A DNA stretch of 64,000 nucleotides. It comes from Opeltia flavorubescens (lineage: Eukaryota; Ascomycota; Lecanoromycetes; Teloschistales; Teloschistaceae). The notes beneath the pieces were generated by a model that saw only the letters and a list, made by a program, of their open reading frames with translations, was not told the DNA's origin and did not search any database. The stretch lies in NCBI GenBank assembly GCA_000442125.1, contig KE546983.1:501581-565580 (forward strand), written 5' to 3'. Position numbers and translations under genes: made by a program. Shown piece by piece: positions 2,255 to 52,120 of the stretch (position 1 is the stretch's first letter; every line of letters starts with the position of its first letter).

Positions 2255-2388
2255 TATTAGTTTAGTATAAAAAAAAATTAATAACTATAAAAATATTATT
2301 AGTATTAAAAAATTAAAAAATTAAAAAAATTAGCGATAGTAGTATTATTCGATTAAAAAAATATTATTTAATTTATTTTTTCTTTTTT

Positions 2389-19800: not shown

Positions 19801-22266
19801 ATTAATTATATAAAAATTTAAAAATAAATTTTATATTATATAATTAAAAATAATATTTATTTTAAAATAAAGAATCGATAATATTTTAATAATTTTTTAA
19901 TAATAATTCGATATAATTTAAATAAAATATTTTATTTAACTTTTATAATTAAAATAAAAATTAAATTTCTATAATTTATTTCTAAAATTATTAATATTTT
20001 ATTAGTAATTTAATAAAATTTCGATAATTATAAAATAAAGTCGTTAAAAAATATTTTTTTCAAAAAATATCGAGCTTTTTTTATTTATAAAAATATAAAT
20101 TTAAATTTTATAAAAATATTAATATATCTTTTTAAATTTATTTTTTATTATAATTTCCAGCTTTTATATTAATTATATATATCTTCTAATATAATTTAAA
20201 ATTTGATATAGTTTTTAAATATTAAAAAAAATAAATCGGTTATAATTTAAATATAAAATTTTAAATTATAAAATATATAATTATTTATAATAATCGATAG
20301 CTATTAAATATATTATTTAATTTAAATATCTATTTTTTTATTTATATTATACTATTTAACCACCGATTTTTTATTAAAATAATAGTTTTATTTCTAGATA
20401 TAAACTCGATATATTAGAAATTTATAAAAAAATAAAAAATAGATTAATTATAAATTAAATACTAGTTTTAATTTATATAATAAATTAAAACTAAAATTTA
20501 ATTTTTTTAAATTTTATAATTTTAAATTATTAATTTTATTATAAAAATAATAAAATTATTAAAATTTATTTAATAATTATTCTAGAAAAATATTTTTAAG
20601 ATAAAATAAATTAAAAAAATTAATATAATTTTATAATAAAAGCGATTTTATAAATTTATTAATTAGAATTTTATTAAAAAAATCTATTAGATAAAAATTA
20701 AAATATTATTTAATTTCTAGTAAAATTAATAATAAAATAAATTTATAAAATATAATTTAATAATAAATTATATATTTATTATTATATAGAAACTTATATA
20801 TTTATTAATTATTATATTTAATATAAATAAATATAATATTTAAATTTATTTTTAATAAATTATAAACTTTAATTTATTAAATAAATTTTTTATCTATAAA
20901 AAATACTATTAATAATTTCGTTTTACTAGAATTTATTATTATTATTAATTATTTAGAAAATTTAAAATAAAAATTTTATAAATTATATTTATAATATAAA
21001 TCGTTATTAAAAATAATATTTAAAAAATTTAAAAATAATATTTTATTTTAAAATCTATTATTAAAAATAATAGACTAATATTTTATATATATTAAATATT
21101 TTATAATTTTTTTATAATTATTAATATATTTATTAAAAAAATTAATATAAAATTATAATAACTTTAAAACGGTATATATAAAAACTAATTTAATTATTAT
21201 TAAAAAAAAAATTAAAATTAATATATTTTTAATATATATAAATTTTTTAAAATATTATTTATTTTTAATTTTTTTAAACTATAAAATATTTAAAAATAAT
21301 AATATTTCTATTAATATCAATATTTTAATATAAATAAATTTAATAAAATTTTTATTTTTATATTATATAAATTTTAAAAAATTATTTAATTTTATTTAAT
21401 ATTAAATTTTGTATTTATTTAAAAACCGAGCTTAAATTTTATTTATTTTTATAGTATATTATTAATAGTAGATAAAAATTATATTATTTATAAAAAAAAA
21501 TATTATAAAATTATATAAAAATCAATATTTTATTTTTATTATAAATTTTTATTTTAAATTAATTAAATAATTTTATAAAAAATTATATTAAAAAATAAAT
21601 AATATTTTAAAATTATATAATATTTAAATAAAAATTATTAATATATTTATATTATTATTCTATTTATTATAAATTTATATATTTATAAAAATTTTAATTT
21701 TAATATTATTAAGTATATTAATTTAATTATACTATTAAAATTTTATATATATTATTATTATTTCTATTATTATTATTTTAAATTTATAAAATTTAATAAT
21801 AAAAAATTTTTTTAAATTTTTTTTTTAATATTAATAGTATTTTATTAAAATATTTTTATAATAATAAACTTTTTTTTATTATTTTTTAAATTTTTAAAGT
21901 TTAAATTAGTAATAGAAAATAAAATATTTATATATAATATATCTAATATATTAAAAACTAAAAGTTTTTTAATAATTTAAATTAGATTTATTTATTAAAA
22001 AAAAACAATTTTTATTTAATATAATATTATAAATATAAAAAAATTTTTTTTTAATTAAAAATATAAATATTAAAAATATTAATATTTTTATAATTTACTA
22101 AAAAGTTTATATATACTCGCGGTTCTATTTTTAATAAATAAAAAATATTTTTTAAAATTAAATAGGCTTTATATTTATATTAGCGAATATATTTAAAATT
22201 TAATTTATAATTTATTTTTTATAAAAGGTATTTTTTTTAAATATTTTATTATAAATATATAATTTA

Positions 22267-22494
22267 TATTATAATATTAGCGTATATAATTTAAAAAGCG
22301 ATATATAAATTTAAAAAAATTTTTTTTTTATAATATTCGTCTAATAATTAATTTTATATAAAAAATCTATAAATATAATTTAAATATTTATTTAATAGCG
22401 AATTCTTTTTTTTTTAGATAATATTTTATATATTATTTATTTTATTAATTTAAATTTATATATTTTTTAAACCAATTTTTTTAATTTTATAATA
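22267..22494 (+). repeat. Left LTR of element F
   Basis: Pairs with 51,882-52,115. Starts tattataatattag and ends tttataata. Preceded by target duplication attta. Confidence 0.8.
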
Positions 22495-25400
22495 TTATAT
22501 TATATTTATTTATTTAATTAATATTTATTTTATAAAAATAATAAATTATAATTTTTTTAAAAAAAACTTTATTTATTTTTTAAATATTTATAATAAATTT
22601 AAAAATTTTTTTAAAAAAATCGAAAATTTTAATCTAATTTAATTATTTTAAAATTCTATTTCAAGTAGTTATAATAATATAAATACTTTTTATTATTTAT
22701 AATAATTTATTAAATTTCGCGAGTAAATTATAATTTAAATTTTTAAATTAATTTATATTAAATAAATATACCGAAATTTTAACTACTATTTAAATCGATT
22801 TTTAATATTTATATACTAAATTTTACTAAATTATTATATAATTAATAATTATATAAAACGAATTTTTTAATAAATAAACGCTTATAATTACTATTATTAC
22901 TATTATATAAAAAATATTTAAATAATTTAACCTCGAGATTTTTAAAGAGAACTATATTAAATTCTATAACTAGCGTTAATAGATAAATATTAAACTTTTA
23001 ACTAACTATAATTATTATAAAATAGAATATAATCGAATATAATATATTTATTTATATATTATTAGTAGTATTAATTTATTTATTCTATTTATATTTAAAA
23101 TCTCGAGTTTAATAATATTAAAAATATTAAAAATTATTTAAAACTAACTTTTATTAATTTAAATTATAAAATTAATATTTAAATTAAATTAAAATATTTA
23201 TAATAAAAAAATAAATTTTTTTTAAAATATTTAATTTTTTTTATAAAATTTATATCGTTTATTAAAATTAATAAAAATTTTAAATATTATTATTTAATTT
23301 ATAATTTAAACCGTAAATTTAATATTTATTTAATTTTTTTTCTATTAACTATTAAACTATATAGAAATATATTTATAAAATTATAAACCGTTATAATAAT
23401 TACTAGTTTTAAAACCTATAATATAATAAAAATTTTAATAATTAATATTCTAGTAGTAATAATTAATAAATAGCTTTTACCCTTATTATTACTATTATTA
23501 CTACCGCTAAAGCCGCTATTAAAACCGTTATTATTATTAATTATAAAAAAAACGCTATAAATATATCTATATTTAGTATTAATAAAAAGTATAAAATTAA
23601 TAAAAAATAATAATATTTTATTTTTAAACTTTATATATATTATAAATAATATTCCACTAATATTTTATATATTTAATTTACCGTTTATAATAATTATCGA
23701 ATATAATATAACCAGTTCTTTTTTTCGAATATAAAATTTATAATAAAGTTAAAAAATATTTAGTTTTTAAATTAAATCGCTTTTAAAAATTTTTAAATAA
23801 TTTCTTTTATAAATTATTTATATAATTAATAATAAATTTATAAAATTCGAAATTAATAAATTTTTATTAATTATAAAAAAATTCTTTATAAATAAATCTA
23901 TTTTATATATTTATATAATAATTAATAATAAAAATTTTATTATTAATTTTATTAATTAAATCTATATATATAATAATTATTTTTATTTTTATTATTTAAA
24001 ATATAAAAAAATCTTTAAATTTATCGATAATAAATTTATTTTTTATAACGAATATTATTATTCCATTCTCGCCTATTTAAAGGATTATATTAAATTAATT
24101 TATTTTTTTATAATATTTAAATTAAATTATTTAATTATTTTTAAATATATTTAATTAAATAAATATAATTCTATAATTAATTAAAAAAAAGATTTTTTTA
24201 TATTTAAAAATAACTACTATTATTAAAATTATTTAAAAGGTTTTACTGATTAAATAAAAAAAAATATTAAAATATATTTAAACCCGTTTAAAGAAAATTA
24301 TATATTTAATTATTAAATATTTTAAAATTATTTTTAAAATTTTTAAATACTAAATAAATAAACCTAGTATTTTTTACGTTTTTTATATATAATTTAAATA
24401 ATAAATTTTTTATTTTTTTAATAATAAATATCGATAAATATTTAAAGGAATTTAAATTTATAATTTATATTTATTTAAAAATTTCGGGTTTTATTTCGTT
24501 TAATAATTTATATTAAAATTTTAAAAAATAACTATAATTATATAAACTATAAACTCGCTAATTATATATTAATAATAGTATTATATTTTTATATTATTAA
24601 AGTTTTCGCTAATAAATTTAAAATAAACCTTTAATTTTTTTTATTTTATCGATTATTATAATTTTTTAAAAGTTTTTTTAAAATAAATAACTAATATATT
24701 TTTTATAAAATATTTTTGTAATTATAAAATTAAATTAATAAAAAATATATTTTTATTTAAAAAGCTTTTTTATAATATAAATTATAATAAACTAATTATA
24801 TTCTAGAAAATTTTTAAAAAAAATTTTAATAGAAAATTTATTTATAATAATTTTTCAAATATTATACCCTTTATACTATTTATTAAAAAATTTAAAAAAA
24901 AACTTATAATTTTATATCGACTACTATTAATTTAATAGAATTACTAAAAAAAATTAATATTTTATCCTTTTATTATAGGAAATTCTAGATTATTTATATA
25001 AAATTAAAATTTTTATTAAATTAAATATTATTATTATTTTTAATAAATTTTATATTATTAAAAACTATAAATAGAAAATAATAAAAGAAATTTATTATAG
25101 TTTATTTAAATAGCTAATATTATTATTTTAATTATTTAATAGCCCGAATTTTTTTTAAAAATTTATTAATAGTATTTTTTATAAATATATTAATATCTTT
25201 TATACTATTTATATTAATAATATTTTTATTTATAATAATAGTTTAAAAAAATATAAATAATATATTTAAAAAATATTAATAATATTTAAAATTATTAATC
25301 TATAAAAAAAAATTATTAAATATAAATTCAATATTATTTAAATTAAATCTTTTCGTTTTTTTATTATTATTAATAATTACGAAATAGATTTTATAAAAAT

Positions 25401-26211
25401 TAAAATTATTTAAAATTAAAATAAGCTTTAAAATATTAAAAAAATATTATTTTTTATTAAATTTATAAATTTTTATCGATATTTTATTAAAAATTTTATT
25501 TTTATTATTAAACTTTTTTATAAATTTATATATAAAAATATTTTTTTTAATAAACTATTATTTATAAATAAACTTTTAATATTTTAAAAAAAAAATTTAT
25601 ATTAAATATAATTCTAGTTTATTATAATTTTAATAAAAAAAATATTATAAAAACTAATATATTTAATATTATTATTAAAGAAATATTTTTTTAATATAAT
25701 AATAATAGATTTTTTAAATTTATTATCTATTTTTTTTATAAAATAATTTTATAGTAAATTAACTATAAAACTTATAATAAAAATTTTTTAGCGATTATTT
25801 AGTATTGAAAATAATAAAAATCCGAATTTAAAAAAATATTAAATATTTTTACTATATTTACTAATTATTAAAATTTTAAATATTTTATATTTATTAAAGT
25901 TTTTAGCCGCTAGTAAATTTAATAAATTTAATTTTTTTTTTCGTTTAAATTTTAAAATTAAATATCGTTTAAATTATTAAAATATTAAATTTGATATTTT
26001 AATTTAATATATTAATAATTTATTTAAAAAAAAATTTATATTTAAAATATTAAAAATAAATTTTTTTTAAACTCGAGTTAATAATTAAAATTATTTTTAT
26101 AAAAATTGTTAATAATTTAAATTTAAAATTTAAAAATATTTTTAATATTTTTAAAATTTCTAATAATAAAAATAATAATTATTTATATTTTTTAAAAAAT
26201 TTTATTATTAA

Positions 26212-26353
26212 TATTATAATTAATAATAATCTAGTTTATTATAATATTATAAAACTATTATATAATTTCGGTTAAAATATTATATCGCTATATTATATTA
26301 ATAAAAAAGAGGATCTATATAATTAAAAAAAAATTTTCCGAAATTTATAGCTT
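26212..26353 (+). repeat. Left LTR of element D, first half
   Basis: Matches 49,793 to about 49,933 (agtttattataatattata, gctatattatattaata and neighbours). It is cut by insertion of element E; bases 26,349-26,353 (agctt) are E's target duplication. Confidence 0.85.
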
Positions 26354-26557
26354 TATTGTATAGTAGGTATAGAATAATAATATTATATTAAAGGTAAAAA
26401 CTATTTACCTGTAAAATTGACAACTAAATAAATATAGGCGCTAAAAGGCGCTAAATTCAACTGGATAAATATATTTAAAAGGCTTCCTTCGGGCTATAAT
26501 AGCTATTTAGTCCTACCTGCTCTATCAGCCTTCTACCTATATAATATAACCGTAATA
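26354..26557 (-). repeat. LTR of element E (low-coordinate, 3' LTR)
   Basis: 204 bp, from tattgtatagtaggtatag to accgtaata. It pairs with 42,286-42,489, with nearly all differences C/T or G/A. Confidence 0.9.
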
Positions 26558-29500
26558 GATACCGGTAATAAATAAAGCTATTAGCCTCTAATAATAGGCT
26601 TTTCCTCGCTAATAAGCGGCTCTTTAGTTTATTTTTACTACTTAATATTAGTATTAATATTATTAGCGGCTTTATTATAGTTTAAAGCCGATTCCGGGTT
26701 AAAGTAGCGCTTATACTTTTCTACTAATATTTTAATATTATTTAAACGGTATTTAAATATCTATTAATTATTTTTAAGCTTATAACTAACCTAATAAATA
26801 AAGTATTAAATAGAAAAGTCTTTACTTTTATAAATACGGCGTTTATAAAAAATTCGTTCGATTTCGAATTCTTTATTACTATTGATAATAACTAGAAGTA
26901 TAGATATACGGTAGCGCTAATAAAAATTATCGCTAGGGTTAATAGTAGGCTCTAGATATACTACTAATATTATATTATAAATATTTATAGTAGATAATAG
27001 CTTTAAATAATAAGCTAATAATCTAATATATTCGATAATTTTAAAGGGGCCTACTAGCTATAATTTAATTTCTTTAAAAGTAAGCTCTAATATATTATAG
27101 CCTTAATATAAATATATTTTTATAAAATCGCCAACTTTAAAATAAACTAGTTAATAGTATATATTATAATATTTCTTTATTTTTATTATAATAAAAATAA
27201 TAGTATTTTTAGTATCGATATATATAGACCGGTATTTTTTTATAATTATTAATATTATAGTATTCCGTGCTATAAATACGTTTATAGGCTCGCTAGCCTC
27301 TAGAATAATCGGGTTACAGCGACGAGCTATCCGTATTATAACTAGAAAGGCAGTTAGTTTTTTAATAAGAGCGTTAATAAAAATTTTAAAGTCTAGTATA
27401 TTTTCTAGCTAAATAGTTTATTTAAAGTTTAATAGGTATAGAAGATCTAGTACTTCGCGAGTTTTAAATTCGAATAGTATTTAATTAAATATTTTTAATA
27501 TAGAACTATAGTTTATAAAGTTATTAAAGGCTATTAATATTTATAAAAAAATAGTAGGCTATAATCTAAAATCGTCTAGTATAATAATATAATAATATAT
27601 AATAATTTTAGCGGTTTAATTAATTTATTCTAATATATTATTAATTTATAAATATTAAATAGTAGAATACTATAAATCCACCTTTAATATTTTAAATATT
27701 TAGTATTATAATTAACCTATAAACTCTATTATCGCGATTTAAAATTATTATTTATAATATACTCTAATTTAGCTTTACTAGTCTATTTAATAGTTATTCG
27801 ACCTATTATTTACCGTTTTAAATAATCTTTTTAGATATATAAGTAACTATTTTAGTAAATTTATCTATTATTAATATATAATAATCGTATTTTTTATACA
27901 ATTTTAATAGAATAAGGATAAAATCGATAGTAAACGTATAAAACGGTTTTATCGGGTTAAATACTAGCTATAGAATTCCGTATAAACGATAGCGAGGTAT
28001 TTAATTAATTTAATACTACGAATAATAGCGAATAAATTTATATAATTTTATTAATATATTATATATAGAGGCCTTCCGTTAAACGTTTATACGTATATAT
28101 ATAATCGGGATAGCCTATTTTATCGTATATCAGCTGGAATACTTTTTTTTCTATATCTATAGGTATTATTAGGCGTAGGTTTTATTTATTATTATTAAAA
28201 TAAAATAGCGCGTTAATAATATAATATAATAATTTAATAATATTATTATTTAGTTTTATATTAGTTTTAACGGATTTTTTAATTTTAATCTAGCGGCTTT
28301 TTTTTATATACTTATTGATTAATTATTAGCGGAATTCGGCTAATATTTTTACTAGATTTACTAGAAAGTAATATACTATAAAGGCCTCTATATCTAACGA
28401 TTCGTCTATTTTCGGGCGGTATTTATAGCTAGTAAATTTTAATAGTATATCTAAAACTATATTTATAACTCTAAATTTATAGCGGATATTAAATTTAAAA
28501 TATTAAAAATATTTAAAAGCTTATATTAAATAAAGGTTAAACTTTTTTATAAATACTTTATTTAGACTAGTCTAATATAAAATATTAACTATAGTAAAAT
28601 AATCCGTATAAATAATAATAATATATTTAACTATTTTAATTATATAGCGGATCTTTTTAATTATTTAAAAAATACCTACGACTTTTAATTCCGTAAATTA
28701 ATAGTATATTTTAATATTTAATAGTAAACGGTTAAAAAATAGAATTAATTATTTAAATTTTTATTTAAATTTTTCGCCTATTTTATAGATAGTTTTATCT
28801 ATATTATAATAGATATAGGCTATAAAGCCGAACTTTTTACTAGTATCTAGATCTATATATAGTACTAAACTTTCGTTAAAGTAGACTAGGATTGATAATA
28901 ATAAAAAAAGCTTTTATAAATAGTAAAACGCGTTAAATTTTTTAAATATAAATACTATTAATAGATTCCGGATAGTAGTTTTTTTATAAACGTTACCTTT
29001 AATAGTAATATCGCGGTTTATATAAATTTTATATTTTTAGAATAATTTTATAATAGTTATATAATTATTAATATACTATTAAAGGTAACTTATTAAATTT
29101 AAATATTTTTCTAATTATTAGAATATATATAGAAACGAAAACTTTAAAATTACTTTTAGCTTATTTTTTATTATAATAAACCCGAAGGTATTAATCTTTT
29201 AACCTAATAGATATATAAATATATAGCTAATAAACGATTTTATAAATAATAAATATAGATTTATAGTATCGAGCGTGCTAAAAATCTAGTTAAAATATTC
29301 TATATATTTTTTTATTAAAGAGGAAAAAACTATAATATTATTAATATAGATTTTATAAAAAGAGCGAAATAAGCGTAAAATTTTATTTATTATTTATTAT
29401 ATATAAACTAATAAATTATAATAATCTATTACCGGTACTTTAAACGTTTTTTATCCTTAATATAAAACTATTATTAAACGGTAATAATACTATTAATTAA

Positions 29501-31540
29501 TTTATTATTAGTAGAAAAAGCTTATAAAATCTACTATAAAAAGGATTTTAGCGTTATAAATTTACGCTAGGATTTTTATTTATAGTAGAACTAGATAGGT
29601 ATCTAGTATTATAATTTTATTAAATATCTAAATATCGATAATAATATAGTTTTTAAAGCTTTAATCGGTATTTTTCTAAATTATAAAATAAAAAAACGAG
29701 AATAAAATAGCTATAGTAGTTTATTTTATCTAATTTTACTTATAAAATTTATTAAAGGCTTTATTAATAATCTTTTTATTATAAATATTAATAAGATATA
29801 TACGGGTTTACCCGGGCTTATAAATCTACTTCTAGTTTTCTATTAATAGAATATTTATATATTCTAACTCCGGTATATTAATTATATTACCGGTATTTTA
29901 TTATAAACGCAGGTAGCGTTTAATTAAAATAGCTAGAGTAGTTTATTCAGCCTATATTCTAAAGATTATTGCTTCTATAGAATATACTATTTCTATCCGA
30001 TAGTTAGGATTAATAAATAGTATAATAGCGGTATTTAAAGCTATAGTAGTTATTATAACAATTATTATATAGCGTTTAAAATTCTTTAAAAACTATTTAA
30101 GCTTTCGCTTTAATATTTTAATAGCTAGTTTATAATTTTCCAAGCTAATTTAATAATATTTATTAGCCTCGTATTTATAAATAATATCTAGTTAAATTTT
30201 CGCGGTTAATTAGATAAAAAATAGCGAATCGTTTTAAATATAAACTTATTTAAATATATAATCCACGATATATATATAGCTAATAAAAGTATTTAAAGTT
30301 TTTAGTTTATAAATAAAATAACGGTTTTATAGAAGATTTAAAGGTTTTCGGCGTAAACTAGCGATTTTAACAGCTTTACTAGCGTATAATAGTATTATAA
30401 TATATTAAATATTATAAACAATAGCGTTTATTTTAATACCTTTAATACTAATAGTAATTAATATTACTATATTATTATAGAAGTTAATAGTTATTATATT
30501 TATAAATAAATATATATCGATATCTTTAAACTTTATAATATTAATACTAATAAATATATTAGCGCTTAAATCGTCTATTAAATAAAACTCGCGCGTAATA
30601 ATAATAAGCTTTATAACCCTTTTATTAGATATAAAAATTTTAATAATAATAAACTTAATAATATTATATTACCTTTTACGAATACCTTTAATATTTATAA
30701 AAGCTGGTATCTTCTAAATTATAGCTTACAGCAGTTATTTTAATAAAAATTTTTAGTTAATTAAGTTTATTATATAGTTTATATTCTAATAAAAATTATA
30801 ATTTTTTATATTAAATTATAAACGAATATCTATAGTTATATAATAGTATTTTTAAAAAGTAAAGCCTATTATTAATATATCCTTTACGATTAAACAAATT
30901 AACTAGAGTATTTATAGCGATAGCTGTTTAATAACCTCTAGCTTAATATTCTCCGGCGTATTTTTAAATAGTTTAACTAGTTCTAAATAAATTTACGCTA
31001 GTACTACTGGAATATTTAGTTTAATAATTGGTTTAATTATAGTAGCTATAGCTAAAAATGGTTTTTTATTATAGTTAACGCGTAGATAATAATATAAAGC
31101 GTTATTTAACTTAAAAATTTTATTGTATTTATCGTATTAATATATTTTTACTGGTTTAAATTTAGATATTATACGTTTTACTATATTAGTTAGGATTTTT
31201 AATAATAGTATATAGAATTTTATTAAGCTTCTCGTCTATTATATATTCAGCTCTAGTAAAATTTATTGATTGGTAGAAGCCGTTTTTATAATTTTAATAC
31301 TATTCTATTCTATCGCCTAGAACCTACTTACCGAAAGCTTCCTATTAGAAGTAAACTCGCTAGTTATTTAGCTAGCGGCTTCTATATAGATTTCAGCTAT
31401 TATTATACTATTAATAGCTATAGTTTTACTAATTTCCGGCTTAATTCTATTACGGCGGAGTATTAATTTTAAACGAAAACTGCTAATAATTATTTTAAAT
31501 AGTATACTAATTGTTTTATATATTAGATTCGCTTTTAATT

Positions 31541-31560
31541 ACTCGTCGGAATGGATTAAA
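31541..31560 (+). repeat. Left terminal inverted repeat of transposon A
   Basis: actcgtcggaatggattaaa, matching the inverted right end at 40,480-40,499 apart from transitions. Preceded by target duplication gcttttaatt. Confidence 0.8.
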
Positions 31561-31837
31561 TTAAACCGGGTTTTGACCTAGTTAAATCTAACCTAAATAG
31601 ATTAAATATACGCTGGGTTAGGCTAGAGATTTTATAGGTTAGATTAGAAATTTTATAGATAAATTTAAAACTTTACTACTATTATTTTAAATTAAAGCTT
31701 TTATAATAATTATTATAATAATAATTATATTAATAGCTAGTAGTTTATAATAGTTTTAGTAAATTTTTCTACTATCCTTTAATATTAATATTATTAGTAT
31801 TTTATAAATAAAAAAGTTTATTTATATTATTTCCGCC

Positions 31838-32048
31838 GTTATTTTAAATATTTTTACTAATATTTTAAATATTTTTATCTTTATTTTAAATACTTTTATT
31901 TTTATTTTAAATATTTCTACTTTTATTTTAAATATTTTTATTTTTATTTTAAATACTTTTATTCTTATTTTAAATATTTTTATTCTAATTTTAAATATTT
32001 TTACTTTAATTTTAAAAATTTTAACTATTATTTTAAGTATCTCTACTA
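31838..32048 (-). repeat. 21-bp tandem repeat array, about 9-10 units
   Basis: Consecutive 21-bp units of the form attttaaatayttttatttt, each beginning with attttaa and varying mostly by C/T. A 21-bp period equals seven codons. On the minus strand the units read as a lysine/isoleucine/phenylalanine-rich seven-residue repeat, as expected if a charged heptad (coiled-coil-like) coding repeat had been RIPed. The array lies near the left end of transposon A. Coding status is inferred. Confidence 0.6.
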
Positions 32049-33195
32049 TTATCTTTAGAGTTTCCGCTATTATTATTAAAATATAAAGTTTTTCTACTAT
32101 TTTCGCGAGTATTTCGCTTATTACCCTAATTACTTTAACGATTATAATATATAATTAAAATAGTTTAAATTATTTTAAATAACGAAGTAAAAATATTAGA
32201 CTAATATTTATAAAAAATTTTAATATATTAATTTAAAAGAATTAATAAGAAATAGTAATTATATCTTATAGATATACTTTTTATTTATAATCGGAATAAA
32301 CGAAGAAATTAATGAGTTTTATATTTATAGATATTATTATAATATATTTTATATAGATTATAATAATATTAATTACTATAATAATTATTATAATAAAATA
32401 ATAAATAAAACTATTAATTATTTACTATTAAATTACTTAACTATTATTAATAAAGATACTTTTTTTAAAATTTCGAATATATTTTATTTAAACTAAATTC
32501 CTTCTAAACCTATAAAATTTTATATAATTTTATAATATAATTAAATAAGTAGCGCTTTTAAAATTAAAGAATTAATAGTTTTTTATAAATATTATATTTT
32601 TTTAAAAGCTTTTACTAATAGTTATTAATAGAAGTAGAATTAATATAATAATTACTATAATTTATTTCTAGATTTAAATCTATATATACGCTTTATTAAT
32701 TTAATAATAAGTATTTTTTTTATAATCGTGGATTTTATAATATATTTAACCTAAACTTTTATTTAATACGGTATCTTTATAAAAAAAAAATTATATAAAT
32801 CTATAAAATAAAAATATATAAAAAACTTATTATAGCAATTTTAAGTTAGATTAAATAGAATTTTTAATTAAATTTAAATATAATAGCTAAAAAAAATTAA
32901 TAACGGTAGTTATAATAGTTATTATAATAGAAAGCTTATTTTTTATATTATAGTATAGTAAAATTACAAACTATTATAGAAAAGTTAATAGTAGAAAGTA
33001 TATATAGAAAAGAAGAAGGAATTAAATAAAGAAATTTTTTTTTAAGTCTATTAATTAAAGTAAAACTTATATATTTATTATCTAAAATATATTTTTTTTA
33101 TTATAATATTAATAATTTTTATCCGATTTTTAGAATTCCTTTAATATATAAATATTATAAATATTATCTATTATAGTATAATTTATTAAATAGTT

Positions 33196-33287
33196 GTAGT
33201 AATAATTATAATAATTATAGCTAAAAAAATATTTAAATAATAAAAAAAAGCAATTTTAGCGCTAGCGGATATATCCGGTATTAGTTT
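33196..33287. repeat. Direct repeat inside transposon A, copy 1
   Basis: About 85 bp, including gcaattttagcgctagcgga followed by tatatccggtattagt. Repeated about 240 bp downstream. Confidence 0.65.
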
Positions 33288-33432
33288 ATTACTAGCGTAT
33301 TTTTTATATTAAATTTACTAGAATAATATTTTTTATACTATATTTTTTACGCTTTATATTTTTTTATAAAAATTATTTAATAGTTTAATTTAATTTATCA
33401 AAAAATAATAGTAGCTATTTATTTAAATAGAT

Positions 33433-33526
33433 ATAATAATAATTATAATAGTTATTATTAAATAGATATTTAAATAGTAAGAAAAAGTAATTTTAGCGCT
33501 AGCGGGTATATCTAATACTAGTATCT
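33433..33526. repeat. Direct repeat inside transposon A, copy 2
   Basis: Matches 33,196-33,287: gtaattttagcgctagcggg followed by tatatctaatactagt. The block between the copies shows no matching inverted ends. Confidence 0.65.
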
Positions 33527-35360: not shown

Positions 35361-35441
35361 ATTTTTATTATTTTTATTATTTTTATTATTTTTATTANTT
35401 TTATTATTTTTATTATTTTTATTATTTTTATTACTTTTATT
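35361..35441. repeat. 9-bp microsatellite (TTTTTATTA)n
   Basis: About nine copies in a row with one N at 35,398 and a final variant ttacttttat. A low-complexity expansion inside transposon A. Confidence 0.85.
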
Positions 35442-38400: not shown

Positions 38401-40479
38401 TAAATATAGTAATATATATTTTAATTATATTTATATTTTACCCGTTTATTAAATAAATAAATATTATTTTATATTATATATAAACTATACCCGATTTATT
38501 ATTAAATAAAAAAATATACTTTTAAAAATAGTCCTATATAATTACTTTTTTATAACTGCCCTAATAGATATACTTAAATTTTTTTTTTTCTAAATTTATA
38601 ACGGCTTAATATATAACGTTCTATTATTATAAAAAAATATCGCGTTTATTTTTTATATAAAAGTAGTTGTAATATCTTTTACTAATTATTATTAGACTAT
38701 TATTAGATTATAAATCGGTCGGTTTTAATAAAAAGATCTAGAAGCTATTTAAAATATCTAAAATCTAGAAAATATCTTTAAAATTAAAGAAAAAAGATAT
38801 AGTATAAATTTAATAGTAAAGGTTTTTTTTTAATAATAAGTATAGTTACTTTATATATTTTTTTTTACTAGCCCCTTTTTTTTAATTTAGATGGTTGCCC
38901 TAAAAATAGATTATAATATAATTTTTATATTATTTTTTTTAGAATTTTAACCTCGGATTTATTTAAACTTTAATATTATTTTTAGTTATTTTATATTCTT
39001 TATTTTATACTAGTTTTATTTTATAATACCTATATTTTATACTAATTATTATAGTAATTTTTAAACGAATCTTCTAATTAAAATATACTAATTTATAAAT
39101 TTATTTACTAGCTATTATATTTAAATAAACTATAACTATTTTAGCGGATAAAATTTAAAATAAAAATAATATAATAATATTTAAGGAAGTTATTAATAAA
39201 ATAAATTTTAAACGGTTATTTTTATTTTTTATTTAGTCCGATTATTCTAAAAAGGTTATATTTAATTATTTAGAAAATTTTTTACTATTTATTTTTAAAT
39301 AAGCGGTTTAATCTATATAATTTTAAAAATAATATTAAAATTATAAATTACAGGCTAAATAATCGAATATAGAATAATTATTTTATAAATTTTTTTTTAT
39401 TTATTAAAAGACGACTACTATAAAAGCTAAAAAAAGTAAACTACTTTAAAAGATTAAAGGAAGGGTTTAATTAAAATAAAAAACTTTTATTAAATAGCGA
39501 GTTAATAAAAAAGTTTAAATAGTTATTAAATTTTAGATTTTTTAATATAAAACTTTAACTAAAATAAAAAGGAAAAAAATTTTTAAAAAAAATAAATAAA
39601 TTAATACTTTAATTTAAATAGTAATTTTTATAATAATTTAATATTTAGTTATAGTATTTTATAAAATTTATTATTTATAAAAATTTATAGATTTTATATT
39701 TTTTAAAATACCTTTCTAGTATATTATTTAAAAAATTTTTATTAAATTATAGAAAAAAAGAATATAGATTTAATTAAAGACTTTAGAAATATTATAAAAA
39801 ATAATAAAAGCTTTTTTAATATATTAGTTTAAATATAAATCTTTTAATATTTTATTTTAATTATCTATTTATATTTTTAATATCGAACTTTTATATAATT
39901 TATATTAAAAAAGTAATAATATTTTTAAAGGATATAATTTTTATAAAAAAAATATAAAAAATTTAAAATTTATATATAATAAGATTATAGCGTTAATCTA
40001 ATAGTAGCTAGATTAGCTTATAATATTTAAAATATATATTAAATTAACGTTTTTATATCCGTTTTTTTAAATTTTATTTATTTATTTATATATTTATTTA
40101 AGCTATATTAATAAATAATTTTATATATTATAATTATTTTAATCTATAATATTTTTTTTTATATATATATATTTTATAATATTTACTATAAATACTAGAC
40201 TATTTATAATTCTAGCCCGACTTTATAATAGAGCTATATTAAATAATTTTTATCTTTAATTAAATTATAATTAGTTTATTATAATAATTACTATAACTTT
40301 AATATAAATTATTATATAAAAAACCTAATAATAGTATACTAAATATAGAACTTTTAAAGTTTTAAGTTAAATTTAATTTAACCCGCTAATAATTTAATAT
40401 ACGCGGGTTTTAAAAAATCGTTAAAAATCCAACCTAACCTAACCTATTCACGGGTTAAATCGGGTTAAGTATAGGTTTC

Positions 40480-40499
40480 CCTAATTTATTCCAACGAGT
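40480..40499 (-). repeat. Right terminal inverted repeat of transposon A
   Basis: Ends ttattccaacgagt on the plus strand. The same end is found in copy B at 15,464-15,477. Followed by acttttaatt. Confidence 0.8.
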
Positions 40500-42285
40500 A
40501 CTTTTAATTAACGGAGTTTGCGGAGCTATAAGGAGATTCCGGTATTAATATATAGTAGAAAATATATTCGGCTGGTTTCTTTATATATAATTCGGGTACG
40601 CGAATAGATATTTAAATATATAAAAGAGGTTATTTTATAATAGCTAGTATACTATTATTTTTTTATATTATTTACTTTTATTTTTTTATAAAAGGTTTAA
40701 TTTTAACGCTTTACGGTTTTTATTACTATTATAAATATTAAATTAATTATTTTTTTTATTTTAAAGGAATTTATAAAAGNNTTTAANNGTANTTATTATA
40801 NTTTTATCNNGAATTAATATTTATAGCCGAGCGTTAAAATATTTAATATTAATTATTACTTAAGTACTTTTAATAAATATTATTTTTATATTTTTTATTT
40901 TAATAATAATATTATTAAAATATTTTAAAAGGTTTTTTTAAATTTATATATCGTTAATAGTATAATATATCTACTCTAGCTACGCTAGTATAATAGACGG
41001 TAGCTCGTTAAAATAGTCTTTAAAAAATATATATTATAGTTTAATACTATCGCCTAATTATAGCGATTTATAAATAAGCTTACTAATTATAATAATAAAC
41101 TATATAATTACTTCGCTTTATAGATAAAAATCTAGATTATAATATATTAATAATATATTTATCGTTTTATATTTAATTTTTATATACTATATAAAAGCGT
41201 ATATATTATAATAGATATTATAAGACTTTATAGATTCTACGGGCGGTTTATCGCTATCTAGTTAGAATAAACTAATATTACGAGCCCTCTATTACAATTT
41301 AGTAACCGCTAGTATAGCTATTAGATTTATTAGTATAGTAATTATTTAATTCTAGAAGTTTTATATAAAAAATTCTAGTAGTTAAACTAAACAGGCGTTT
41401 ATAAATAGTTATTTATTTAAAAAAACTTACTACTATTATAATAAATTACTATTATTTATAAATCTACCCTATTATTATTATAATAGAATTTCTACTATAT
41501 TTAACGGCGGTATAATACTTTTTTTCGATTTTACTAAATAAAATAGGCTAGATTTAGTACTAGAAATATAGTTTCGCTACTTAAATATATTAATAAATTC
41601 GGTAATATTTATAAATTCGTCGATTTATTATAAGTCTTTTAGCGAGCCCGGAAAGTAAAAGTAAAAATTTAAACTATTTTAGATAAAATTTATAGCTAGC
41701 TTTTAAATATAAACTTAAAAGCCTTTATTTTTAAAATTTATAATAGTATTATTATAGAAATCGTTTATTACTTTAATAAAAATCCGCGGGTATTCGCTCT
41801 AATTTATAGGATAAATAGCGATAAAAACTATACTAGCTTTTATTATACTAGTTTAAATTATTTAACTACTAGAAGATTCCTATATTAAAAAATAATATAA
41901 GCCTGGATTTCTTTTATAGATATAATTAGTATAGACTTTAAAAATTATTATAAAGGCTCGATTTTATTTTAAAAACCGTTTAATATACTTTTAAAATTTT
42001 TTAATATAAAACGCAGCTATAATAAAAGCTAGTATAATAGCGAGGTCGGTTAGGTCCTCCGAATTATTATAGAAGATATCTAAAATTTTATTAGAAGAAC
42101 TAAAAACCAGGGTATATTTTAATTAATTCTATTAATCGAGTATTTAATATAAAAGCGGTGGTTTAATAAATAAAAAAGCGTTAGGCCTACTCGAAAAATC
42201 TAGTACTATATAATAATTAATAGTATATATATACGGAAGTTAATAGTATTATATTTTATACAAGTTGCCTTTAATTACTACTATT

Positions 42286-42489
42286 TATTATATAGTAGGT
42301 ATAGAGTAATAGTATTATATTAAAAGTAAAGCTTATTTACCTATAAAATTTATAACTAAATAAATATAGGCGCTAGAAAGCGCTAAACTCAACTAGATAA
42401 ATATACTCAAGAAGCCTTCTTCGGGCTACGGTAGCTATTTAGCCCTACCTGCTCTATTAGCCTTCTACTTATACGGTATAGCCGCAATA
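42286..42489 (-). repeat. LTR of element E (high-coordinate, 5' LTR)
   Basis: 204 bp, from tattatatagtaggtatag to agccgcaata. It shares aaataaatataggcgcta and ctatttag-ccctacctgctc with its partner. By orientation it is the 5' LTR. Confidence 0.9.
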
Positions 42490-42609
42490 AACTTTTTAAA
42501 TATTAATATATATATATTCTTTATATATAATTTTATATATATAATAGTAGAATATTAAATTATTATTTATATTTCTATATAATTTTTCTACTATTATATT
42601 CTTTTTATA
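42490..42609 (+). repeat. Left LTR of element D, second half
   Basis: Resumes with aactt (target duplication of E, 42,490-42,494), then matches about 49,935-50,049, including tttttaaatattaatatata and ttattatttatatttctata. Together with 26,212-26,353 it reconstitutes one LTR length. Confidence 0.85.
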
Positions 42610-45600
42610 TTTTAATATTTCTATTTTTTATAAAAAACAGTTCGACTATATTATAAAGCTATAATATAAAATAGTAATAATAATATTATATTTATAATTA
42701 AATTATAATCGCTAATAAATATAATTATATTATAAAATAATAATATAAATAAATTTATTAATAATATTTTAAATATAGAAATTCGAGCTTTTAAAATAAA
42801 ATTAGCTTTAGTTTATTAATAAAAAAAATTAGAAATATTAAAAGTAGAAAAGAAATTAGAATTTCTAAAGCTATTTATTATTATATATCGATAATAAACT
42901 TTTAAAACTATAATTAACGATTTTAAATATATTAAAAAATAAAAAATAAATAAAAAGTCGAAATTAAAAATTTTTAACTCTATTTAATATAAAAATAAAA
43001 ATTATATAGAATATATACTATTTAAACGCGAATATAAATATATTTTCGAAATTTATTTAATTATATATAAAACGGAAGCCTTAAAAATTCTATTTAATAT
43101 AAATTATCTTAATTATTATTTAATAAATATATAAAATCGAATTAAAAAAACGAATTTAAATATTAGGTTTAAAATAATCTAAAATAAATAATTAAAATTT
43201 CTATTAAATTAATTCGACCTTTAAATTATTTATAATATTAAAATAATATTATAATATTTTAACGCGAAATATTATAATAAATAAAATATTCTTTTATTTA
43301 TTAAATATTTAAAAAATTTTAAAAATTATATAAAAAAACTTTTATTAAATTATATTTAAATAAATATTTTAAAAAACGCCTTTTAAAATACTATAATCGA
43401 CGAAATATTTAAAATATTTAATTTTCCGAAAATATATTAAAGGATTATTAATTAAATAATTAAAATTAAAGTCGATTTAATTATAATATTAGGCGCGTAT
43501 TAATTATAATAATATAAATACTAGAGTATTAAATTTTAAAAGCTATAAAAGTAATTAAAAAAAATAAAATCTATTTAATACTATTATATCGGTAATTAAC
43601 GCGAATATAATAATAACTAGTTATAGAAATTATAAAAGCTAGTATAATTTCTAAAAATATAATTTAAATAATAGCCGCGAATTTTATAAAAATAGTAACG
43701 TACTAATAATAATTATTTATAAAAAATATAATAAAAAAAACTATAAAAAATCCGATTACTTTTATAAAAAAAAAAAAAAAAAAAATAAAATCTAGTAAAT
43801 ATTATTTTTATATTATTAAATCGCTAATAAATAAAATTATAATTATTTTATCTAATTATAAATATAATTATTTAAAAAAAAAAAAAAAAATTAAATTAAT
43901 AATATTTATTAATTATAATATAAATTTGAATTTTATATTATAATATTATATAAAGGAATTAAAACTATATAATAGCCGCGATATTAAAGCGCTAGTTAGA
44001 ATATTAAATAATATAAGTTTAATTTATATTTAAAAATATAAATTTCCGGTTAACTTTATTAATTTAAAAAAAAAATCTAGAATAATAATAAATAAATATA
44101 TTAAAACGAATATTAAATTTTTTAATATTATATTTAATCTTTTATAATTATATTAATATAATTTAAATATTAACTAGATATATATATAATAAATATAACG
44201 CGATTTTAGTATTATTCTAGCGGGAATAGATATTAAACTAATCCCGGTTAAAAAATTAGAATATTTATTAAAAATAAAAGAATTTAAATAATTATATTTT
44301 TTTAATATAAAGTTATATAATAAAAATAATATAATCGCTTTATATAATATTAAAAAAATAATTTTATTTAAAAAATACGCTAATTTAAAAAAAATTTATA
44401 TTTTTTAAAAAATTAATAAACTTTTTAAATATTTTATAAATAATTATATTTTTAAAATAATAGATAATTTACCGTTTAAATTTTTATATAATTTTTTAAT
44501 TATTAAATTAAAGGTTTTACGGACCTATATTAATAAAAGTTTAATAAAAAAATTTATTTATTATTTAATATCGCGAGCTAGTATATTAATTATATTTATA
44601 AAAAAAAAAATAATAACCTTCGCCTTTATATTAACTACTAGAGGCTAAATCGAGTTATTATTAAAAATTAATACCCTTTTTTTCTAATATTAAAAGTTTT
44701 AGATAGATTATATAAAATAATAACTTTTACCTATTTAAATATTCGAAATATTTATTATTATATTAAAATCCGGAAGAGTAATAAATAAAAAATAATATTT
44801 TATATCTATTATAGCTATTTTAAATACTATATTATATTATTAAATTTAATAAATACCCCGATTATTTTTTAAATATATATTAATAATATTTTTAAAAATT
44901 TTTTAAATCTATTTATTGTAATATATATAGATAATTTATTTATTTATTTAAAAAATAAAGCCGAATATTTAATATATATATATATAAAATCTTTATAAAA
45001 TTATTATAATATAAATTATATATTAAATTAAAAAAGTATTTATTTAATATATATAAAGTTAGATTTATAAAATATATTATTTATTTTAATAGTATTATAA
45101 TAAAAAAAGTTTATATTAAATATATAAAGAATTAGTCTCTTTTAAAATTATATTATAATATATAATATTTTTTTAAATTCGTAAATTTTTACTAATATTT
45201 TATTAAAATATTTTTATAAATAATATTACTATTAATATCGCTATTATAAGGTAATAATAAAGGAAAATTTAATATTAAATTTATTTTAATTAAAAAAGTA
45301 GCTAGTATATTTAAAATATTAAAGGAATATTTTATAATAGCGTTTATTTTATAATAATTTAATTATATATTTTAAATTTTTATTAAAACCGATATTTTAA
45401 AATATACTATTTTAGTAATTATTTTATAATTTTTTAATACCGATATATAAATCCGCTAGTATTTTATTATCTATTAGTTTTATAAAAAAACGATAATAGA
45501 ATATAATTATAATATTGAAGATTTTAAAATATTAGCTAATATTTATATCTATAAATAATAGTAATATTATATTAAAAAAGCTTTTTATAAAATAAAAATT

Positions 45601-48600
45601 ATTATTAATTATATAAACTTTTATAATTTTTTTATAAAAAAGGAATTAAATTATAAAAATATTAGATAATAAAAATAACTAGTTAAGCTAGATTTAAATT
45701 TAAAATATAGGTTAAATAAATTAAATTTTATTAATATAATATTATAAAAAAATAATTATAAAGTATTTAAAATTTATATTGCTTTTAATATTTTAAATTA
45801 AAAATATATTTATTTAATTTTATATTCTAGAAAATTTTAAAAAAATTTTAAAAAAAGCGTAAAACTAATTATAGGTTTTTTAAAAATCTAACGCTATTTA
45901 TTTAGAACTATTATAAAATAAAATAAAAATAAATTTAAACGTTTATAAAAATCTTTAAATAATATTAAAAAATCGTTAAAAAATAATAAAAAAAGCTATT
46001 TTAATAATAAAATATTATTAATTAATTTTAAAAATATTTAAAAAAATTTTTAAAAATTATTTAAAAATATTAAAACCGCTATTAAAAATTTTTAAAATAT
46101 AATAATAATATATTATATAGCGAAAAAAATAAAAGCTAATATTTTTAATAAAAAAAATAAATTTTTAAAAGATTTTTTTAAATATAGATTTTTAATAAAA
46201 GGTCGCGTATTTTATATTTATATAAAGAAGCGTAATAATAATATATTATTTATATTTTTTTATAATTAAAAACTATTTTTAATATTAATAAAAAAAAGAA
46301 ATAAAAATACTTTAAAAAATAATATAAAAATATCGACTCTATTTTTTATAGCTAAAAGGAAGTTTTTTAAAATAAAAAAAAGATATTTACTAGTAAAAAC
46401 TCGTGATTTTAAAGTATATAAAAAATTAAAAACTTTTTATAATTCTAATACTATTATATATAATAATATTTAATCGATTTTTTTAAATAATTTTAATAAT
46501 TTTAAAAATTTATAATTAAAGCGATAAATTATTAAAAAAACGACTTTAAAAAATATATATAATATACTCCTATTATTTTTTTATTATATTATAAAAAAGT
46601 TTTAAAAATTTAATAATATAATTAAAAAATTAATATTTTTAAAAAATAAATCGTTTAATAATTTATTAAACGTTTATATAACGTTAAAATAATTTAATAA
46701 AAATTATAAATAATATTAAAACTAAAAATAATTTTATTATAATAAATAATAGTCTTTATTTTTTAATATAATTAAATAAAAAGTTTTTAAATATAATTAT
46801 AACAATTTTATAATAGATTATTTCGATTATAAAAAAATATTAAAATTTATTCACCGAAAATATTTTTAGCCGAATATAATAAAAAAAATTAAATACTATA
46901 TATATATTTATAATATATATTATTAGATAAAACCTATAAAATATAAATTATTTAGTAAAATATAGCTATTAGAAAAATTTTTAAAATCGTTTAATAATTT
47001 AATTATAGATTTTATTATTAATTTATTTTTATATAAACGCTTTTATATTATATATAATTCGATTTTCTTAATAATCGATTATTATATAAAGTTTATTATA
47101 TATATTTTATATTAAATAGTTATAATTATAGAAAAGCTAGCGGATATTTTTATTAATAAAATATATAGCTATTATAATATATTTAAATTGTTAGTTTTTA
47201 ATTAAAATTTTTTTTTTATTTTATAATTTTAATCTATTTTTTATTATTATTAAAAGATTTAATATTATTTAAATATTATTTTTTTTTTATAAATTAATAA
47301 ATAAATTAAATAATAAAATTAAATTTTAAAGTAATTTTTAAAAAATTCTATTAATTATAATTAAAATAATTAAAATAAATAACTATTTTTTATAAAATTT
47401 ATATATAATAATAATAAATATATTTTTACTGATATAATATTATTTTTTATCGCTATTAATAGATATTTTAATCTAAAAAATAATATTTAAATTAATAATA
47501 CTAAAAATAATATATTTAAAGTATATTAATATATTAAAAAATATATATATATATATTTAATTTAAAAGCTAATAAAAAATAATAATAAAAAATAATTTAA
47601 ATATTATAATTAAAAATATTTTATAAAATCCTTCGCTACTAGCGATATAATATAACTAAATAGGCGTAATATTAAAATAAAAAAGTTATTAAAGAAACTA
47701 AATTATAAATTTTATAAACTTTTTAAAGTAATAAAATTAATAAATTTATAATTATATTATTTAAAACTTCTAGCGTTAATAGATTATATCTATTTTAATT
47801 TTTATATTTTTTTCCTCGAGCTATATATAATAGTAGAAGAGAGAGATAAAAAAAATCTACTATTTTTATTTATTAATAATAAAAAATAATATAAAATCGA
47901 AAAAGTATTAAATTTAAAATAGTACTATAGAAAATTATAATATTTAATAAAATAATTTAATTATAGCTTTAAAAATAATAATTCATTTAATATTAAAAAA
48001 ATATCGAAAACTAGCGAATATATAAAGAACTTCTATTATATATATTTTAAAAAACCTTTAAATAATAATAAAAAAAAGCTTTTAAAAAAAAATAAAAAAA
48101 GAAAATAAATTATAATTAAACTATATATAAATATAAAAATAAATTAATAAATAAAATTAAAAATATAAAACTATAATATCAAAAACGCGAAATAGTAATA
48201 AAAATAAAATTTTATATAAATATTAAAGTTTATCTATTAAATATATAATAAAAAATATATATTATAAAATATTCTATTAAAAAAAATTATAATTAAAAAA
48301 AAATTTTATTAAAATATAAATTTTAAAATTATAATTATTTAAAAACGATATAAGTTTAAAAATAGAATATAGAAATAAATATATAAAAATAAATATTAAA
48401 AATAGATATAAAACGCTAGACGAATATAAAATTATATAATAATATTATTTTTTTTTATCTCGCTTTTATTAATAGAAAAAAAATTATTTTTTCTAGCCGA
48501 ATTTAACTACTCCTTTTTAATAATTAAAAAATCTAAGCGATTTTAATATAAAATTAGCGTACGAAATTAAATAAAAAAAGTAAATATATAATAAAATATA

Positions 48601-49792
48601 TTATATTAATATTTATATTAATTGATTTTTTTAAAATATAAATAGTTTTAATAATATTAAAAGTATTAATAGTTTTTTTTCGCTATATTTTAGTTTTCTT
48701 CTAAGCTTTAATTGATTTATAGCTAAAAAAAATAATAATATATAAATAACGCGTAATATATCGCTTTTTATTATTATTAATAATATTAATAATAATAATA
48801 ATAGAAATTATTTTATTAGTAATTAAAATAAATTTTTAAAAAATTTATATAAATTAAAAAAGCTACCGTAATATATAAATTTAATATATTAATTTATATT
48901 TTTTTTAAAATTTAAAATAACGCGTATAATATTTAAAACTAATATTAAATTTTATATAATAAATAAAAATATAATAAATAATAAAATTATTTTTTATTTA
49001 TTTTTTATTAAAAATTATTAAATACTAATATTAAATAAGCGATATATATTATAATATTAGTTTTAATATATTAATAGTAGTAATCCTTTTATAAAATTAA
49101 AGTATTTAATAATATTAAAGTATTAAATATTTATATATTTTAAAAAAATTTTTTAATTATAAAAGTTTTAAAAGCTTTAAAATCTATAATAAAAAATATA
49201 AAAATTAGAAAAAATTTATAAAAAGATAGAGCCGGTAAATAAAAATAAATTATAATAAAAATATTAAAAATATAAATTAAAGAATATTTTATACTAAAAG
49301 AAAATATTTATTATATATTTATAAATAAAAAATAAAATTATATTATTTAATATAAAGTTTATAATATTAATAATATAATTTAAATTATTTAAAATTTAAT
49401 AACTTTAATTATTTATAATTATTCTAGTATAATATAGCCGCTAAATAGAATTATTAAATAATATTAATTTTTATAGATATGTTTTAATATAAATATTCGC
49501 TAAATATTAAAAAGTATTAATAATATATTATAACGCGATAATTAATATTAATATTAATATCGAATAATTTTTAATATATAAAGTAAAACTATTTATATAT
49601 TTTATATATTTTATATATAATAATAAAACGTTTTATATATAAACGCGTATTAATATTATATATTTTTAAATTATTAATTTTATTAATATATATTTTAGAT
49701 ATATATATTTTATTTAAAAAACTTAGCTATTTATTATATATATATCGCCTAACTATAAAATAATAAAAATATTATTATAGAAGAGGGAATAT

Positions 49793-50049
49793 TATTATAA
49801 TTAATAATAGTCTAGTTTATTATAATATTATAGAACCGTTATATAGCTTCGGCTAAAATATTATATTATTATATTATATTAATAGGAAAAAAGGTTTATA
49901 TAATTAAAGGAATTTTTTTTAATTTTTTTAACTTTTTAAATATTAATATATATATATTTTCTATATTTAATTCTATATATATAATAGTAAAATACTAAAT
50001 TATTATTTATATTTCTATATAGTTTTTCTATTATTATATTCTTTTTACA
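49793..50049 (+). repeat. Right LTR of element D (uninterrupted)
   Basis: 257 bp ending ctttttaca. It serves as the reference that reveals the split left LTR, and keeps more G/C (gaaccgttatatagcttcgg) than the left copy's first half. Confidence 0.85.
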
Positions 50050-51881
50050 ACTAATATCTTTTAAAATAATTTTTTTATATAAAAAATATTTAAATTTTTT
50101 TATAATAAAGCTATATACTTTAAATATATTCTTTTAATAAAATATAAAAAACGAAATAAATTTTTATATTATTAGAACTAATTATTTATTTTTAATTTTA
50201 AATTTTTAAAAAATCGCTTTTATTAATTATATTAAAATTATCCTATTACTAGCTATTTTAAAAAAATTAAAATTTATAAATTATTATACTAAAATTATAG
50301 AGAGTTTAAAAATTATCAATATATAATATAAAATATTCGAAATTATTACTTTTATATTAAAAATAAACCTAAATATAAATTTAAAACTATTATAATAAAG
50401 TTTTTATTTATATTTATCTAGTATTAGTATAATATTTTTATAGATTTTATTATTAAATTATTTAAAAGTAATAAATATAATATAATTATAATAATAATAA
50501 ATTAATTATTAAAAATATATTACTATATATTTTATTATAAAATTAATAATATTAAAAAATTTATTAAACTATTTAGAAATTATATATAAAAAATATAAAG
50601 TTTATTTAAAAATAATATTTTTAATTAAAACCTTTTATTTATAAAACGATTTTAGAAAATTATTTATAAAAGAATTTAAATATTTAAAAATTTTTTTAAT
50701 ACTTTTTATTTTAAAATTAATAGTTGAATTAAATATTTAAAGTTTATTATAAAATAATACCTTTAAAATTATATTATTTATTTATAAAATAATTAAATTA
50801 AATAACTATTAGCCGTTAAATTGAATATTTATAATTATATTTTTAAAATTATTATAATAAATTTATTTTTTATTAATTATAGATTTTATTTTTAAATAAA
50901 TCTAAAACCTTTTAATATTTCTAGCCTAAATACTTTTTATAAAAAAACCAATATAGCGAGTAAATTATTAATAATATAAAAAATTTAATTAAATATATTA
51001 GCTTTAATATAATATTAATATAAATTAAATATATTAAATATATTAATTTCAGCCGCGCGCTAGTATTAAAATTTAATATTAGCGATTTTATTAAATTTAA
51101 TACCTATAATATTAAAATATATAAATTTTTAAAAAAATTAGATTATAAATATAAAAAACTTTATTTTATATTTAAAATTATTAATTTTTATATTTATTAT
51201 CTAAAACTACTTTTTTTTATTTTTTATATAATTTTACTAAAATTTATTATTAATAATTTTTATTTAAAATAAATAATCCCGTTATTATTATTTATAAAAA
51301 ATTAATAGTAAAAAAAATTATTAATTAAAATAAATTCTAGATTTTTTATATTAATATAACTAGTTATTATATTAAATTTAATAAAAAGATTATAATATAT
51401 TATATTTAATTTTTATTTAAAATTTTACTAATATTATATATTTATTAATTATTTTTTATATTTAATATTTTTATAAATTCTCGAAATTTTATATTTAAAC
51501 CCGCTATTAAATAATAATCTAAATATTATATTTTATATTAAATTTTATCTATTATAGTATTATAATTAAAATAGCTAATTTTTATAGTATATAATTATTA
51601 TAAATTTTAATTAATACTATTTTATATATTTTAAAAATATATTTTTATTTAAAAATCGCGAATTTAAATTTATAATAAAATTTTATTTTAAATTTATATA
51701 TAAAAATATAAAAATAATATTTTAATTATTAGAATTTTTTTTTAAATTTTTTTAAAAAACCTTTTAAAAATTTTTAAATATTATTTTGCTTTTAATTTTT
51801 TTTCTATTAATTATTAATAATTTCCGTTGTTATCTAAATAAATTATTTTTATAGAACTCGGAATATTAAAAAAAAAGCTAT

Positions 51882-52115
51882 TATTATAATACTAGTATAT
51901 ATAGTTTTAAAAATAATATATAAATTTAAAAAATAGTTTTTTTATAATATTCGTTTAATAATTAATTTTATAAAAAAAGTCTATAGATATAATTTATATA
52001 TCTATTTATTAGCGAGTTTTTTTTTTTTTTTTTTTTATACAATATTTTATATAATATTTATTTTAATAATTCAAATTTTTATATTTTTTAAATTAATTTT
52101 TTGAACTTTATAATA
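51882..52115 (+). repeat. Right LTR of element F
   Basis: Pairs with 22,267-22,494; the few extra bases are largely a long T run near 52,018-52,037. Followed by target duplication attta at 52,116-52,120. Confidence 0.8.
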
Positions 52116-52120
52116 ATTTA

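Follow-up and report, generated by a model that had tools for sequence, protein, structure and literature searches.

Four transposable elements nested within one another in an AT-rich genomic block with signs of repeat-induced point mutation

The window analysed here, 64,000 nucleotides of contig KE546983.1, almost certainly contains a nest of four transposable elements in an AT-rich block, apparently mutated by repeat-induced point mutation (RIP), of what seems to be an ascomycete-like fungus. From the outermost to the innermost layer, the nest comprises the three Ty3/Gypsy retrotransposons F, D and E and the DNA transposon A, which carries terminal inverted repeats (TIRs) (Table 1). The four layers are recognised by containment, by paired ends, by the target duplications of E and A, by a preserved pre-insertion site of E and by the colinear halves of F. 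The order of insertion F, D, E, A is given by the containment; that E entered D is also shown by the target site AACTT, preserved once at positions 49930–49934 in the right long terminal repeat (LTR) of D. The four nested levels and their order, as given in a preliminary description of this DNA, are thereby retained. The surrounding block extends from position 1 to about 54.65 kb, where it meets DNA of about 50% G+C content (GC) at a sharp boundary; windows within the block have 4–20% GC, with parts below 8%.

The LTR pairs were assessed by comparing the window with itself. Bases 1–54800 were divided into 300-bp chunks and subjected to composition-weighted local alignment, with the reversed window as null; the null maximum was 95.8, matches were listed above 1.1 times this value (about 105), and for each chunk and strand the three best were kept. 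Among the 58 matches above this cut-off are all LTR pairs claimed before, which align over the proposed lengths, and the inverted ends of A. The LTRs of F align with 198/227 identities (score 295), and those of E, identical at 173 of 204 positions, are recovered as 26352–26550 with 42284–42482 (169/199, score 506). The left LTR of D is split into 142 and 115 bp, which together equal the 257 bp of its right LTR, again in agreement with the preliminary description, and both parts find their counterpart there (26212–26354 with 49793–49935, 116/143, score 200; 42490–42663 with 49930–50115, 152/174, score 221). A further LTR pair outside F was sought and not found among the listed matches or among 60 weaker pairs, taken from the top three per chunk and strand. 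Net lengths, calculated from the coordinates after taking out the inner insertions, are ordinary for Gypsy elements in the case of F, D and E, as had been proposed. An alignment with plain scores was not relied on, since nulls from random places sometimes reached or exceeded the true score (F 443 versus 892 and 459; E 292 versus 386), probably through random places overlapping the query or its partner.

Table 1. Positions of the nested elements, their parts and associated features, counted from the first nucleotide of the window.
Feature	Position	Strand	Remark
Element F, Ty3/Gypsy, outermost	22267–52115	+	net 6006 bp
F target duplication	22262–22266 and 52116–52120		ATTTA/ATTTA, exact
F left LTR	22267–22494	+	
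F right LTR	51882–52115	+	
F reverse transcriptase / RNase H region	24139–25945	+	
F integrase region	50167–51396	+	beyond D insertion; named by homology and position
Element D, Ty3/Gypsy	26212–50049	+	net 7697 bp
D target duplication, weak	26207–26211 and 50050–50054		ATTAA/ACTAA, one C/T transition
D left LTR, first 142 bp	26212–26353	+	ends in E target AGCTT
D left LTR, remaining 115 bp	42495–42609	+	
D right LTR	49793–50049	+	257 bp; E target uninterrupted
D reverse transcriptase / RNase H region	44293–45826	+	homologous to F and G
D integrase region	46708–48003	+	named by position and homology to F right half, G and K
Element E, Ty3/Gypsy	26354–42489	-	net 7167 bp
E target duplication	26349–26353 and 42490–42494		AGCTT/AACTT, one G/A transition
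E LTR, 3' in element's orientation	26354–26557	-	
E LTR, 5' in element's orientation	42286–42489	-	
Transposon A, innermost	31540–40500	.	8961 bp; termini TACTCGT...ACGAGTA
A target duplication	31532–31539 and 40501–40508		CTTTTAAT, exact 8 bp on both sides
Near-palindrome TTATARTAATTAYTATAA (18 bp) in A	31701–40296	.	18 separate sites with 21 matches (at most 2 mismatches)
Second copy of A's right end	15332–15478	+	101/144 in self-comparison
Ambiguous bases in A	35398; 38219–38254		
Ambiguous bases in E	40780–40810		

Paired LTRs flanked by a target duplication are present in F, D and E. In addition, all three contain a reverse transcriptase (RT)–RNase H region followed by an integrase region, which is the order found in Ty3/Gypsy elements; for D this arrangement is recognised by homology to F and to two other Gypsy sequences of the window, G and K, described below. 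In one of its six frames, the left half of F exceeds the gathering score of the Pfam family RT_RNaseH_2 (E 2.2e-7) and equals that of RT_RNaseH (E 2.5e-5). The right half gave no Pfam match in its three plus frames, and its integrase label is derived, via D, from K, which matches SH3_Tf2-1 (E 1.6e-6, just below the gathering score), and not from an integrase match in Pfam. At the protein level, scored against reversed-sequence nulls, positions 24877–25869 of F match 44591–45613 of D with a score of 183 (null maximum 70.5), and positions 50167–51396 match 46732–47967 with 125.5 (null maximum 63.5), so that the halves of F lie in colinear order with D. Both halves also match G (199, null 90.5, and 141, null 66.5), the integrase region being colinear with 10397–9174. 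Around the insertion of D, F retains about 450 bp between its RT/RNase H and integrase matches, compared with about 1.1 kb in D, which agrees with the shorter total length of F.

D itself matches G with scores of 312.5 and 246 (null 73), and its integrase region matches K with 309.5 (null 62.5). In the three plus frames of D no Pfam family was detected, a shorter piece giving only RT_RNaseH_2 at E 1.5 on the plus strand scanned. The left part of E matches RT_RNaseH (E 0.011), RT_RNaseH_2 (E 0.026) and SH3_Tf2-1 (E 0.0063) on the minus strand, all below the gathering score, with the SH3_Tf2-1-bearing region downstream of the RT; no Pfam match was obtained in the three plus frames of this part or in the three minus frames of the right part, which from its position would be the 5' side. 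The RT region of E (29771–29031) matches the left half of F with 112 (null 53), and weak similarity connects the left part of E to D (67, null 53.5) and to G (85.5, null 58.5). Taken together, these data support the assignment of F, D and E to the Gypsy class made previously. The elements resemble fungal Ty3/Gypsy elements in their LTR pairs, 5-bp duplications, domain order and net lengths of 6–7.7 kb, and differ from them by heavy mutation, with stop codons in every frame of the counted windows. Features as short as a primer binding site or a polypurine tract have probably been degraded by RIP in all three. A Tf2-like label for this kind of element would be based on the sub-threshold SH3_Tf2-1 matches of E and K.

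The inverted ends of A are found as 31524–31729 with 40528–40266 (149/170), with a score of 108 just above the cut-off. Its termini are identical at 15 of 18 inverted positions, for which chance is about 0.0002 per random pair, uncorrected for the choice of ends; five of the matched positions are G/C, and none of 200,000 random pairs reached both criteria. Moreover, a second copy of A elsewhere in the window stops at position 15478, where 22 of the 25 terminal bases are identical to the right end of A, and thus independently confirms the right boundary.

A target duplication of A is present as described, though its 10-bp version (gcttttaatt/acttttaatt) contains one mismatch and reads best as an exact duplication of 8 bp (cttttaat). 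Target duplications are 8 bp long in hAT elements and 9 to 11 bp in Mutator-like elements. A 10-bp duplication, pointing to a Mutator-like rather than a hAT-like element, is a secondary and somewhat unlikely reading: GCTTTTAATT/ACTTTTAATT agree at 9/10 positions, and CTTTTAATTA agrees at 10/10 if the two ends of A are taken asymmetrically, whereas the symmetric ends TACTCGT...ACGAGTA leave the exact 8-bp duplication without a mismatch. In both copies an A follows ACGAGT, a weak point, since A is common here. The 8-bp duplication would fit hAT, alongside the 9/10 and 10/10 readings; as no hAT transposase was recognised by Pfam in the six frames, A is not filed as hAT. For a Mutator-like element (MULE), the duplication length is ambiguous and the Pfam scans gave no MULE transposase match. 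A resembles hAT and Mutator-like TIR transposons in that its inverted ends are short and its duplication measures 8 to 10 bp; its length of 8.96 kb, the lack of a recognised transposase in the Pfam scans and the near-palindromes dispersed throughout set it apart.

Misjoining of unrelated RIP-mutated repeats in low-complexity DNA could in principle mimic such a nest, since an extreme AT content makes assembly difficult and both A and E contain ambiguous bases. However, the N's occur as one or two bases at a time, and all eight seams are free of them. The seams of E and A carry matching target duplications, the split LTR of D sums exactly to its partner, the target of E is duplicated once, and the halves of F are colinear with a Gypsy element. 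An assembly artefact is accordingly considered extremely improbable, and the nest is taken as genuine.

Several observations weigh against the nested arrangement or against parts of it. The exact 5-bp duplication of F, taken alone, is near the chance level of AT-rich DNA, and the same applies to the duplication ATTAA/ACTAA of D, a weak candidate where none had been given before, which in addition contains a mismatch; other offsets at the ends of D match as well or better. For a random pair of sites in the AT-rich zone, chance matches amount to 1.8% for an exact 5-mer, 12% for a 5-mer with at most one mismatch and 0.16% for an exact 8-mer (0.07% in the zone of E), and several offsets were scanned when the duplications were read. 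Because the duplications of F and D are weak by themselves, these two levels are established by the paired LTRs, the sum of 257 bp in D and the colinearity. The clean boundaries claimed for every level therefore stand as boundaries, while the wording is slightly strong for F and D; the exact duplication of F and the one-transition duplication of E are as reported. At the protein level, the right part of E is barely above the nulls (53.5 versus 47 with D, 50 versus 42 with G), and the right half of F scores below the null against the left part of E (48.5 versus 60). The GC content (F 0.076, D 0.097, E 0.204, A 0.140) is lower in A than in the enclosing E and so tracks the inferred age only in part. 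Furthermore, the comparison with other copies of the four elements covered the window only.

Finally, no transposase was recognised when the six frames of A, and shorter pieces of it, were scanned against Pfam; RIP could hide one. This negative result and the inverted ends barely above the cut-off would suit a reading in which A is other repetitive DNA and E was broken by a rearrangement. Such a reading is very unlikely, if marginally less so than misassembly, in view of the matching inverted ends, the five matched G/C positions, the exact 8-bp duplication and the second copy with the same end base. A is thus regarded as a transposon inserted into E.

RIP-like mutation, as stated in the preliminary description, is supported by a (CA+TG)/(AC+GT) ratio of 0.07–0.18 in F, D, E and A, compared with 1.24 in the flank of 50% GC. 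In the 600-bp windows counted in the left half of F, in D and in the left part of E, no frame has fewer than 3 stops per 100 codons. It had also been stated that RIP prevents dating by LTR divergence. However, RIP does not make transversions, and in addition to their transitions (F 17, D 30, E 29) the LTR pairs differ by 12/227 transversions in F, 6/255 in D and 2/204 in E, which still allow relative dating in part. In uncorrected comparisons, p is 0.013 for F versus E, 0.098 for F versus D and 0.31 for D versus E, and four alignment settings yielded 12, 6 and 2–3 transversions in F, D and E, respectively. Against a simple ranking, five of the six transversions of D lie in the 25 bp before the insertion of E and may represent a single event; without this stretch D retains 1/232, fewer than E. 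Transversions thus support F as the oldest element, while D and E are not separated by them and their order rests on containment.

The history of the locus would accordingly have started with the insertion of F, followed by D, which would have entered F between the RNase H and integrase regions, by E, which would have entered the left LTR of D on the opposite strand, and by A, which would have entered E. Each element presumably transposed separately, F, D and E by a Gypsy integrase and A by a cut-and-paste transposase, and RIP would have scarred all layers. The accumulation at this place can probably be explained by a tolerance of new insertions where the DNA has been inactivated before. This view has been put forward for Epichloe festucae, in which nested repeats are reported in AT-rich blocks and RIP-inactivated repeats are suggested to offer later arrivals a safe haven (PMC6218096). 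The present block resembles those blocks in that repeats are interrupted by repeats and transposons appear RIP-inactivated; it differs in that one nest is worked through with its boundaries given explicitly, and in having parts below 8% GC. Passages on other fungi describe an overwhelming number of nested and/or truncated LTR elements in Blastomyces (PMC11540331) and mention nested insertions in Pyrenophora teres (PMC5915480) and Zymoseptoria tritici (PMC9970103). In the passages of these four papers no transversion ranking of RIP-mutated LTRs was met, and "transversion" in those of PMC11540331 refers to a phylogeny model.

Genome graveyards of this kind are common, and the present one, a clean further example, is ordinary for a RIP-prone filamentous fungus. 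In textbook fashion, a single sequence reveals the order in which four elements inserted, and the pre-insertion site kept within the nest and a clock based on transversions only serve as cross-checks. With nests like this one can ask how RIP-like mutation scales with the age of a layer and whether transversions rank insertions where transitions are saturated. The unclassified innermost transposon is the part worth a look genome-wide.

The least understood of the four layers is A, which contains the near-palindrome TTATARTAATTAYTATAA, a pattern first spotted by eye in AT-rich DNA, which favours such words. With at most two mismatches it occurs 33 times in the window versus 7.15 expected, a count reached by none of 100 shuffles. 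These matches comprise 21 in A (including three overlapping pairs), five in the second copy of A (counted over 5329–6701 and 14394–15478), three each in G and E, one elsewhere and none in D or F. If three mismatches are permitted, A holds 31 of 108 matches and the contrast fades. In a count of 12- and 16-base words, the top family in A was seen 13 times versus 0.9 expected (log-likelihood score 22.7), compared with best 12-base scores of 8.7–12.7 in the other six regions; for 16-base words the best score was 22.8 in A, compared with 15.8 in G. As a speculative suggestion, to which little probability is assigned, A might belong to an undescribed family of TIR elements of about 9 kb, studded with the near-palindrome at 18 places, or roughly every 0.5 kb; this repeated motif might be bound by the element's own transposase or another DNA-binding protein and would have outlasted genes erased by RIP.

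Near its left end (31839–32057), A contains a tandem array of about 10 copies of 21 bp. A sub-threshold match to RNase_Y_N (E 0.0039; 0.031 in a shorter piece) falls on this array and was rejected, as was a sub-threshold match to LAG-3 (E 5.4) overlapping a 9-bp array at 35361–35441. Tests of stop-codon density and codon-position bias did not settle the coding status of A: the median stop density is 9.5 in A versus 9.0 in D, and the three windows listed for A lie on the 21-bp array. Protein-level comparison of A with D is at or near the null (65 versus 71 on the plus strand, 62.5 versus 59 on the minus strand). Searched as text in the literature, the terminal 12-mers of A returned two papers, unrelated by title (cancer; Acinetobacter infection).

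Besides the main nest, a second, partly resolved nest is located at 1–18 kb. It includes the right part of the second, more AT-rich copy of A (5329–6259 and 14937–15478), split by the Gypsy element G (6.7–14.4 kb, about 7.7 kb, minus strand; LTRs 6702–6912 and 14183–14393); the left part of this copy was looked for in the window and not found. Abutting the truncated copy is a direct repeat pair of 295–307 bp (5038–5344 and 17962–18256) with 30/294 transversions, possibly the LTRs of a still older element. K, a less AT-rich Gypsy remnant of about 17% GC, occupies positions 1–5037 on the plus strand and contains an integrase-like region at 189–1502. On the other side of the main nest, between F and the flank of 50% GC, the AT-rich segment 52121–54650 displays a strong bias by codon position (median chi-square 17.4, compared with 5.6 in shuffles) and gave no Pfam match in six frames. 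About 1 kb past the AT/GC boundary, cytochrome P450-like exons are found at 55732–56464 on the plus strand scanned (E 0.0004 and 0.0035, below the gathering score).

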